Shown: positions 9,115 to 26,639 of the stretch, one piece after another
Numbering within the stretch: the first letter of the stretch is position 1
Layout: every line of letters begins with the position of its first letter
Source of the DNA: Candidatus Nitrosopumilus sp.
Lineage (GTDB): Archaea; Thermoproteota; Nitrososphaeria; Nitrososphaerales; Nitrosopumilaceae
Assembly (NCBI GenBank): GCA_013911135.1
Contig: JACERO010000005.1
Location: 1-64,000, forward strand
Direction of reading: 5' to 3'
DNA length: 64,000 bases
The notes under the pieces: generated by a model
The model's input: only the letters and a program-made list of their open reading frames with translations
Told to the model about the DNA's origin: nothing
Database searches by the model: none
Program-made: the position numbers and the translations under genes

Positions 9115-9199
9115 GTGGGAGTCGCCCAGCCTGGTCAACGGCGTAAGGTTCAGATCCTTATCTTCTAGGAGTTCGTGGGTTCAAATCCCACCTCCCGCA
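9115..9199 (+). tRNA. tRNA-Leu(CAG)
   Basis: 85 bases fold as a class II tRNA. The acceptor stem GTGGGAG pairs with CTCCCGC, with one U-G pair. The anticodon stem AAGG/CCTT encloses loop TTCAGAT, giving anticodon CAG (codon CUG, Leu). A long variable arm follows, and the T arm GTGGG-TTCAAAT-CCCAC is perfect. The discriminator is A and CCA is not encoded. No intron is seen. A TATA-like TGTATAATAAAG lies about 40 bases upstream. Confidence 0.92.
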
Positions 9200-9217
9200 C
9201 TAACTATTTCCATTAGA

Positions 9218-21695: not shown

Positions 21696-22012
21696 GGTAG
21701 TAGATCTGTTGGTTCCAATCTAGACGAATAGCCCCATTTCAAGGCATACAAGATCCGCCACGTTGACGAGGAAGCATGGATGTCCCACCTTAGGATTGCT
21801 CCCTCCCGGACCTCATCCCTTTCAATGGCTCGGTCTTAGAAGTTATCCCTTCGGATAATTCTAGTCCTGCAACCATCCGCCTCGGCGTGATTTCATTTCC
21901 GCACACCAAGCGGGAATTACTCATCTATAGATTTACCCAACAGTTACTGATCTCTGCATATAGCCGGTTTCAGAATAGGGCACGGCTGGCACCCTGATCT
22001 TACCTACTACCG
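21696..22012 (-). ncRNA. Archaeal signal recognition particle (SRP, 7S) RNA
   Basis: Read on the minus strand, the 5' end GGTAGTA (from 22012) pairs with the 3' end TACTACC (to 21696), and GATC with GATC just inside, forming the closing helix 1 of archaeal SRP RNA. Helix 6 is the hairpin TTATCC-GAAG-GGATAA. The S-domain helix 8 core contains GAGGTCCGGGAGGGAGCAA, the SRP54-binding motif seen in all SRP RNAs (compare the GGTCCGGAAGGAAGCA core). The length of 317 bases and local G+C richness fit. A TATA-like box lies 24 bases upstream of the proposed 5' end. Confidence 0.9.
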
Positions 22013-24241: not shown

Positions 24242-24553
24242 ATGAAATCAGTAATAATTATCTCAACTTATCCTAACAAAAAATCAATTATAAAAATTGC
24301 AAATGAATTTGTAAAAAATAAGACAGTTGCATGTGTCAACATTTCAAAAATTTCTTCAATTTACTCTTGGAATGGAAAAGTGGAAAATACATCTGAATAT
24401 CTTGCAATATTCAAAACTACAACAAAAAACAAGAAATTGCTAAAAAAGAAAATTAAAGAAACTCATCCATATGATGTTCCTGAAATAGCAGAAGTTGATA
24501 TCACTTCGATTAACAAATCATATCTAAATTGGCTAATAGAATCTACAAACTAA
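24242..24553 (+). CDS. cutA: CutA1 divalent cation tolerance protein
   Basis: 103 residues. It reads MKSVIIISTYPNKKSI, ..VACVNISKISSIYSWNGKVE and ..KETHPYDVPEIAEVDI, the three signature blocks of CutA1 trimers. CutA binds divalent metals and is linked to copper tolerance in bacteria, although its exact role is uncertain. It starts at ATG 24242 after a TATA-like TTTTTTAAAG. The last 4 bases overlap the convergent pelota gene. Confidence 0.92.
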   Translation: MKSVIIISTYPNKKSIIKIANEFVKNKTVACVNISKISSIYSWNGKVENTSEYLAIFKTTTKNKKLLKKKIKETHPYDVPEIAEVDITSINKSYLNWLIESTN

Positions 24554-25599
24554 GATTCTACTGCATATCGTAATAAAGAAATTATTCCACCTAAACCTGT
24601 AACTCTTAGACCAATATCTGTGGATGAATCAACACTGTAAATTTTTACTCCTTTGCTTTCAACATCATTTAGAAAATCTATCATTTTTTGTTCATTATCT
24701 TGAATTGCTTTGTCTGAAAATACAAGAGATTCAACTGCTCCTATTTGATTTGCACTAAATGTTTCATCAAAACCCATAGTGAATTTTCTACTCTTCTTAT
24801 TTGCAAGAAGCATTACCTCATCAATAATTGATGATACCTTGGCCAGCTTACTATCTGACATTATCTCCTTCATTGATTGAGATTTTGTAAATATGTAAAT
24901 TCCATCTTCTCCACCTGAATCAACTCCATCAACAACTTGAACTTTGTATTTTTGTGTGTTTTGCAATTTTTGAATGAAATTAGAAAATCTTTTTTTTGTT
25001 TCACCAGGACCAAAAATTACTATCGAATCTCCTTCCTTGAGTACAGTTGACACTGCTAGTTGTACTTGTTCAAAGAATTTTTCAATATTGAAATTAGTTT
25101 TGTATCTCTTTCCACTAGAACCAGAATAGATGTTTGGAATAAACTCTAAATGTGTACCTCTTAGTTTTGCAATTCCACAATCACCAGTATCAATTGCAAC
25201 AAGTACAAAACCTACTTGATTATTACTTGATTCTAGAAGATTCTTTTCAATTGGTAACCATTTTTTCTTTGAAATTGTTATTCCATCATTAATTTTTAAA
25301 ATAAATGAATGATGTGAGCCATGTGGTACTGATTCGTTACTTGATTCAGAAATTGTTCCACCAATTCTTAACTTGTCCAATACATCATCAAGTGAAATTT
25401 TTTCTACCATTAATGCAATTCTGACTTTAATTCTCTCTCCTTTATCAGGTCTTGAGTAATCTTTATCTTGTTTTAAAACTCTAGTTGTATCTCCAATTAC
25501 TTTGTCATCTTTTTTAATTATACGACGTAAATTCAAAAGATCATCAGAATCTTCTGGCTTGACAGAAATTGAATTCTCATCAATTATCTTTGTAATCAT
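24550..25599 (-). CDS. pelA: Pelota (aPelota/Dom34) ribosome-rescue factor
   Basis: 349 residues. The N-terminal Sm-like domain (about 1-130) has DDLLNLRRIIKKDDKV and GERIKVRIALMVEKI. The central eRF1-type domain 2 has VGFVLVAIDTGDCGIAKLRG. The C-terminal eRF1 domain 3 has the ends FDETFSANQIGAVESLVFSD and GLGGIISLLRYAVES. The protein binds empty A sites with archaeal EF-1A/aABCE1 and recycles stalled ribosomes. Unlike eRF1 it lacks GGQ, as expected. A 138-residue conserved-type gene lies 32 bases upstream on the same strand. Confidence 0.93.
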   Translation of the reverse strand: MITKIIDENSISVKPEDSDDLLNLRRIIKKDDKVIGDTTRVLKQDKDYSRPDKGERIKVRIALMVEKISLDDVLDKLRIGGTISESSNESVPHGSHHSFILKINDGITISKKKWLPIEKNLLESSNNQVGFVLVAIDTGDCGIAKLRGTHLEFIPNIYSGSSGKRYKTNFNIEKFFEQVQLAVSTVLKEGDSIVIFGPGETKKRFSNFIQKLQNTQKYKVQVVDGVDSGGEDGIYIFTKSQSMKEIMSDSKLAKVSSIIDEVMLLANKKSRKFTMGFDETFSANQIGAVESLVFSDKAIQDNEQKMIDFLNDVESKGVKIYSVDSSTDIGLRVTGLGGIISLLRYAVES

Positions 25600-25631: not shown

Positions 25632-26048
25632 TTAGCTTGTAACTTCGTTTGTCTTTACTTCTTCAGATTTTTTCTTTAGATAGTTTTCAACCCAATCTAA
25701 AGTGAGAACACCTGATTCTGATAGATTTGTTAGAGAGTTTGCAGAAGCTTCTCCTGTTACTTTACCATTGTTTCTTCGCAACTGACGCCATTTTAGCGAT
25801 GTATTGCCACTTTTTGAATTATAAATTATTCCAAGAATATCTCTTGCGTTTACAAATGTAATGTCTCTAATTTTTTTCAAAGTTACTTTATCTGCAGCTT
25901 CTACGTAAACTGATCCCAAATTATCTTCTCTTTCTGGAAATACCTCAAAATCCTCCAGATAGCTTCTTGGTGCATAAGATTTGCATGTACTTGAAAAGAT
26001 AAATCTTCGAAAACTTTCCACTGAAGCTAGAGTATCAATTGTAACCAT
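25632..26048 (-). CDS. Hypothetical protein upstream of pelota
   Basis: 138 residues, not recognised. The sequence MVTIDTLASVESFRRFIFSS, then YLEDFEVFPEREDNLGSVYV, ends in a helical tail, LTLDWVENYLKKKSEEV. It has no cysteine cluster, membrane span or signal. The basic central stretch (SLKWRQLRRNNGKVTGEA) could contact RNA. It is 32 bases upstream of pelA on the same strand, so the two are probably co-transcribed and a translation-related role is possible. The C/D box sRNA candidate lies in its upstream gap. Confidence 0.6.
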   Translation of the reverse strand: MVTIDTLASVESFRRFIFSSTCKSYAPRSYLEDFEVFPEREDNLGSVYVEAADKVTLKKIRDITFVNARDILGIIYNSKSGNTSLKWRQLRRNNGKVTGEASANSLTNLSESGVLTLDWVENYLKKKSEEVKTNEVTS

Positions 26049-26123
26049 TTTGAATGAATGATCTATTAGCCATTTATCAAGCTTATTGAAAGACTCAATA
26101 GGAATCTGCCTGAAATATGACTT

Positions 26124-26183
26124 GCGGGCAGTGATGAACCTATCCCTTTGAATGATGATGAGGATCTTGAGTTCTGAGCCTGC
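26124..26183 (+). ncRNA. C/D box sRNA candidate (rRNA/tRNA 2'-O-methylation guide)
   Basis: In the 171-base gap between two divergent genes, the plus strand carries box C GTGATGA (26131-26137), a C'-like ATGATGA near 26156-26162 and box D CTGA (26174-26177). The outer stem GCGGGC (26124-26129) pairs fully with GCCTGC (26178-26183), forming the kink-turn that L7Ae binds. The spacer before D is GGATCTTGAGTT (12 nt) and the spacer after C begins ACCTATCCCT, both of archaeal guide length; D' is degenerate (TTGA). The total of 60 nt is typical. Confidence 0.72.
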
Positions 26184-26219: not shown

Positions 26220-26639
26220 ATGAAATCTTTAACTGAATATTTGACATTTAATGTCAAAACACGAAGAGCCTTTGTGAACATTACTCCTAATGTAAGCAAG
26301 TTAGTTACAAAAAGCAAAATCCAAGAAGGACTTTGTCTTGTCAATGCAATGCATATCACTGCTAGTGTTTTCATTAATGACAATGAAAGTGGTTTGCATA
26401 AGGATTATGAAAAATGGTTAGAAGGCTTGGCACCACATGAACCAATTGATCAGTATGATCACAACAAAACTGGTGAGGATAATGCAGATGCGCATCTAAA
26501 ACGACAAGTGATGGGACGAGAAGTGGTAGTTGCTATTACTAATGGTGAATTAGATTTTGGTCCATGGGAACAAATTTTCTACGGAGAATTTGATGGAAAG
26601 AGACCAAAAAGAGTTTTAGTTAAAATAATTGGCGAATAG
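26220..26639 (+). CDS. YjbQ/UPF0047 family protein
   Basis: 139 residues. Family marks are [39 protein letters not shown], and the metal-site region [23 protein letters not shown] with the following [15 protein letters not shown]. YjbQ proteins have weak thiamine-phosphate synthase activity in vitro and an unclear cellular role. It is a complete single gene with an A/T-rich promoter region (TTTTAATGGATGATTTA) just before ATG 26220. Confidence 0.9.

Follow-up and report, generated by a model that had tools for sequence, protein, structure and literature searches.

The gap between a minus-strand open reading frame that starts at position 26048 and a yjbQ-like gene that starts at 26220 on the plus strand is divergent, as a first-pass annotation had described it, and raises two questions: is the boxed element inside it a C/D box sRNA gene, and if so, which RNA does it guide? 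The analysis covered a 64,000-nt stretch of DNA (the window) from a Nitrosopumilaceae genome of 1.71 Mb. Judging from comparison of sequences, the locus is very probably an archaeal C/D box sRNA whose D guide pairs with nucleotides 30-41 of tRNA-Leu(CAA) and directs 2'-O-methylation of the wobble cytidine (Cm34).

Positions 26124-26183 of the plus strand hold a complete archaeal C/D box sRNA gene (see Table 1). Boxes C, C'-like and D, which the annotation had reported in the correct order, are all located there, together with the six-base outer stem (GCGGGC with GCCTGC), whose pairs covary in relatives. The spacers said to have archaeal guide length correspond to guides of 10 and 12 nt. Two overlapping ATGATGA copies had left the exact C' and D' boxes in doubt, and this is settled by the relatives: D' has the form NTGA (here TTGA), and C' is taken to be the 3' copy because only its TGA is invariant. 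Box C lies near the 5' end, box D near the 3' end and a short closing stem joins the two, as in a C/D kink-turn.

Table 1. Features of the C/D box sRNA locus, in window coordinates.
Feature	Position	Strand	Remarks
Conserved upstream element CATTTATCAAGCTTATTGAAAGACTCAATAGGAATCTGCC	26070-26110		Strong conservation in 36 aligned upstream regions
C/D box sRNA gene, 60-nt core	26124-26183	+	89.9 bits with a covariance model built on 13 orthologues
Closing stem, 5' strand GCGGGC	26124-26129	+	Pairs with 26178-26183
Box C GTGATGA	26131-26137	+	TGATG invariant in 13 close relatives; UGA retained in 45/45 aligned sequences
D' guide region ACCTATCCCT, 10 nt	26138-26147	+	Orphan; core TATCCCT in Nitrosopumilaceae, TAGCCC in other families
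Box D' TTGA	26148-26151	+	In 13 close relatives TGA invariant, first letter variable
ATGATGATGA	26152-26161	+	Between box D' and D guide
Box C' ATGATGA	26155-26161	+	3' of two overlapping copies; TGA at 26156-26158 invariant
D guide GGATCTTGAGTT, 12 nt	26162-26173	+	Against the tRNA-Leu(CAA) anticodon arm; G26169 (position 5 from box D) opposite C34
Box D CTGA	26174-26177	+	No change in 13 close relatives; covarying kink-turn partners in distant ones
Closing stem, 3' strand GCCTGC	26178-26183	+	Pairs with 26124-26129

On the two strands of the window together, a single site has C, D', C' and D in this order within a closing stem of 6 bp, and none of 200 Markov-simulated windows of equal dinucleotide make-up has one. 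When the covariance model is run against the sRNA's own genome, the runner-up reaches 29.9 bits against 89.9 for the sRNA. The single-strand folding energy is unremarkable (z = -0.21), as is expected for a C/D RNA.

At a threshold of E <= 0.01, the covariance model finds matches in 323 of 400 Nitrososphaeria genomes, and in 195 of the 220 good genomes of the class; the search filters were strict, so that genomes without a match do not count as evidence of absence. The guide GATCTTGAG is kept in all 30 distant matches that were read (the best match per genome, from about 15 families, picked mainly from distant ones), with the proviso that the model itself favours this guide. Boxes, stem and guide occurring jointly at such scores cannot be of chance origin. 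Among close relatives, guide plus box D reads GATCTTGAGTTCTGA in 13 of 13 aligned sequences, while four of the six closing-stem pairs change on both sides, with 98.7% of cells paired and a covariation score that none of 500 shuffles equals. Across 45 aligned sequences (44 orthologues plus the Met guide described below), all six stem pairs and both pairs of kink-turn stem II have two-sided changes, which amount to 77 cells against a shuffled mean of 20; for instance, C-G/C-G replaces U-U/G-C in stem II of L190 and L204. The C and D boxes are thus retained in relatives, the conservation on which the first-pass annotation had made its reading depend.

Several relatives depart from the common layout. 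In two families (f3 and f4; L200, L205 and L207, and L190 and L204) box D reads AAGA/AGGA or GGGA instead of CTGA, and some members have matching changes in box C. In a GC-rich relative (L040:2885-2966) a hairpin-like insert, GGCCGACGGCC, separates D' from C', and box D is CGGA. The genome G316 (L249, L259) has a 23S rRNA gene of 6,753 nt and a 16S rRNA gene of 2,409 nt, far over normal length, which suggests rRNA introns, and the 16S matches of G189 and G273 are interrupted at model position 828.

The sRNA ends 36 nt upstream of the yjbQ start, and it precedes yjbQ at 13 other Nitrosopumilaceae loci too. A cis-regulatory repeat or a yjbQ leader could occupy such a place, and yet we regard this reading as next to impossible: outside Nitrosopumilaceae the sRNA is retained, usually without an adjoining yjbQ, and its stem and guide show the covariation or conservation of an RNA with C/D boxes.

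As to the target of this sRNA gene, the D guide GGATCTTGAGTT matches nucleotides 30-41 of tRNA-Leu(CAA) (GACUCAAGAUCC) with one G-U followed by 11 Watson-Crick pairs, and the D+5 rule, under which guide bases are counted from box D and the fifth marks the target, singles out the wobble base C34 exactly. The genome contains the 10-mer ACTCAAGATC at three places: antisense at the sRNA, inside a tRNA gene at C99 that ARAGORN identifies as an intron-containing tRNA-Leu(CAA), and at one other place. In a scan of 46 of the genome's own rRNAs, tRNAs and SRP RNAs (8,278 nt), tRNA-Leu(CAA) is the top site with 23 points, the next best having 20. It should be noted that with the window's guide by itself, 23 points are also attained in 2 of 300 letter shuffles, so the assignment leans on register and conservation as well. 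The mean target score over the guides of 14 species is 22.4, a value reached by none of 300 column shuffles. In addition, in every one of the 22 genomes where both genes were read, the guide and the mature tRNA-Leu(CAA) of the same genome form an unbroken run of at least 9 Watson-Crick pairs, or of at least 10 pairs if G-U is counted.

The annotation had assigned no targets and proposed that complements of both guides be sought in rRNAs and tRNAs. This search succeeded by half: it leads from GGATCTTGAGTT to C34 of tRNA-Leu(CAA), but yields no convincing target for ACCTATCCCT. That the main target is instead an rRNA, reached for example at 16S own position 1403 or through a D' site, is very unlikely in our judgement. 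The D guide does pair with 16S 1399-1410 through 8 Watson-Crick and 4 G-U pairs (score 20), but this best 16S site scores under tRNA-Leu(CAA) and places a G-U pair where methylation would occur; it was rejected as the D target. On the D' side, the core is conserved (the two forms are given in Table 1), which suggests some pairing, yet the bases upstream of it drift freely and candidate sites are inconsistent between species. When 14 Nitrosopumilaceae and 25 outgroup D' guides were compared with their own rRNA, tRNA and SRP RNA against column shuffles, no cross-species site emerged, nor did a site consistent between species appear when each guide was set against the aligned 16S and 23S of its own genome. 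A 5-bp match (AGGGA) of the D' guide to the anticodon stem of the genome's own tRNA-Leu(CAA) was also rejected, because five species with AAGGA keep TCCCT and the pairing is not maintained. In a published survey, one guide of tRNA-directed archaeal sRNAs is usually without a target (PMC7994747).

In Nitrosopumilaceae a canonical intron after G37 splits the target in tRNA-Leu(CAA). The first three intron positions are A/G, U and C/U (RUY) in 23 of 23 canonical introns examined, with position +4 onward variable, and in all 23 pre-tRNAs the first intron bases, in every variant, still pair with the guide. Since the intron starts with nearly the bases of the 3' exon, a duplex is possible on both the precursor and the mature tRNA, and methylation could, as far as these sequences indicate, come before or after splicing. 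We did not accept the conservation of +1 to +3 as proof of pairing with the pre-tRNA: U+2 may pair inside the bulge-helix-bulge, which leaves only +3 (C or U, 23/23) unexplained by that structure. The RUY pattern is therefore suggestive only.

The same observations could be read as a role in splicing, in which the sRNA masks or opens the bulge-helix-bulge of tRNA-Leu(CAA) instead of, or besides, guiding methylation. The guide footprint does span the 37/38 splice site in Nitrosopumilaceae, and the RUY bases pair with the guide, but other families keep the same guide where the tRNA-Leu(CAA) intron is absent or lies beyond the footprint. The intron, and with it the splice site, is thus not the reason for the guide, and together with the bulge-helix-bulge explanation of U+2 this leaves the splicing role a slighter chance than the rRNA target. 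Methylation guiding at C34 remains our preferred reading. A more elaborate form of it is possible, but we hold it doubtful as a whole: an ancestral, class-wide wobble-methylation guide, an intron that copies the first bases of the 3' exon so that Cm34 can precede splicing, and a second partner for the conserved D' core.

The genome encodes two of the proteins that such a guide would need. Fibrillarin is present (E = 3.1e-89), and directly upstream of its gene lies that of a protein with a Nop snoRNA-binding domain (Nop5; E = 3e-68). Archaeal C/D RNPs are built by binding of L7Ae to the C/D kink-turn and the C'/D' kink-loop, after which Nop5 and fibrillarin join. The same three proteins would assemble on the C/D and C'/D' motifs of the sRNA, which is presumably transcribed from this gene. 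The D guide would then capture the anticodon arm of tRNA-Leu(CAA) at nucleotides 30-41, possibly also in the unspliced precursor, and fibrillarin would methylate the 2'-hydroxyl of C34, chosen as the base that faces guide nucleotide 5, counted upstream from box D, to give Cm34.

Guides of a similar kind are known. In Pyrococcus, a C/D sRNA is predicted for C34 of tRNA-Leu(CAA), as one of four tRNA wobble guides that PMC7994747 reviews and PMC7668247 lists for three species of the genus; among the tRNAs of P. furiosus analysed in PMC7668247, most sRNA-predicted positions were undetected. This predicted guide shares with the present one the target nucleotide, the guide logic and a stand-alone sRNA gene, but belongs to another phylum. 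The sR49-type guide directs Cm34 of elongator tRNA-Met in Haloferax and Pyrococcus (PMC2584109). It too aims a D guide at C34 of an anticodon loop, whereas its target is tRNA-Met(CAU) and its guide GGATTATGAGTA. The genome of the window has an sR49-type counterpart, another C/D sRNA (L173:1501-1563; G000:C40:2250-2312, plus strand). The pairing of its D guide GGATTATGAGTA with tRNA-Met(CAU) (L117) extends along 12 positions and sets C34 at D+5, and the D' guide of this RNA agrees with 23S own position ~2606-2617 (GTCGGCTTTTCC) at 11 of 12 positions.

No Rfam family reaches its threshold with the sRNA. The top-ranked match, RF00095 snoPyro_CD (E = 1.3e-7), shares the boxes and their spacing, but its 39.8 bits are below the gathering threshold of 45 and its guides differ. 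RF01132 sR48 (23.1 bits against a gathering threshold of 40, E = 0.019) aligns through the boxes only and has a different D guide. The snoPyro_CD similarity, ranked first even if below threshold, joins the box order, the class-wide conservation, the compensatory stem changes and the fibrillarin and Nop genes in bearing out the C/D box sRNA gene, which at the level of sequence is confirmed as real and correctly read by the first-pass annotation. The C/D RNA within the tRNA-Trp intron (sR50) guides Cm34 and Um39. It resembles our case in the methylation of a wobble C in an intron-containing tRNA, but its guide sits inside the intron, whereas here action in trans from a separate gene is predicted.

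Guide-directed tRNA methylation has been described chiefly in hyperthermophilic and halophilic archaea. With the present locus, a specific predicted guide for wobble methylation is placed among the mesophilic ammonia oxidisers and the rest of their class, with the guide invariant, and Cm34 in tRNA-Leu(CAA) is predicted for cultured Nitrosopumilus and Nitrososphaera. Neither a description of this RNA in Nitrososphaeria nor one of C/D sRNAs from these two genera was found in the literature searched, most subscription journals lying outside it. The kind of RNA is already known; what is added is its assigned target and its class-wide conservation in Nitrososphaeria. Since no Rfam model attains its threshold, the gene is probably missed by current annotation, and the alignment could seed an Rfam family.

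Among named organisms, the neighbouring gene is closest to those of Nitrosomaritimum, Nitrosarchaeum and Nitrosopumilus MAGs. On the minus strand, 25632-26048 encodes a 138-aa protein that is ~50-70% identical to homologues in other families of the class and has no match in Pfam, NCBIfam or PDB; its predicted structure (AlphaFold) has a mean pLDDT of 42 and is unusable. This gene adjoins the C/D sRNA at 23 of the 30 distant loci (22 clear, one at E = 1e-7). Directly downstream of it, and probably in the same operon, lies a Pelota-like gene (24550-25599, minus strand; TIGR00111 at 173 bits, slightly below the cut-off of 177.65).

The conserved element at 26070-26110 is probably a shared divergent promoter region. 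Its sequence, CATTTATCAAGCTTNTTGAAAGACTCAATAGGAAT, is conserved nearly as well as the sRNA within Nitrosopumilaceae. In it, TTTATCAAG is placed like a TATA box, ~27-35 bp ahead of the minus-strand start codon, and TTGAAAGACTCAA persists where the minus-strand gene has moved away (L015) and may be the sRNA promoter. Elsewhere in the window there are an ordinary archaeal SRP RNA gene (21698-22009, minus strand) and an ordinary tRNA-Leu(CAG) gene (9115-9200, plus strand).
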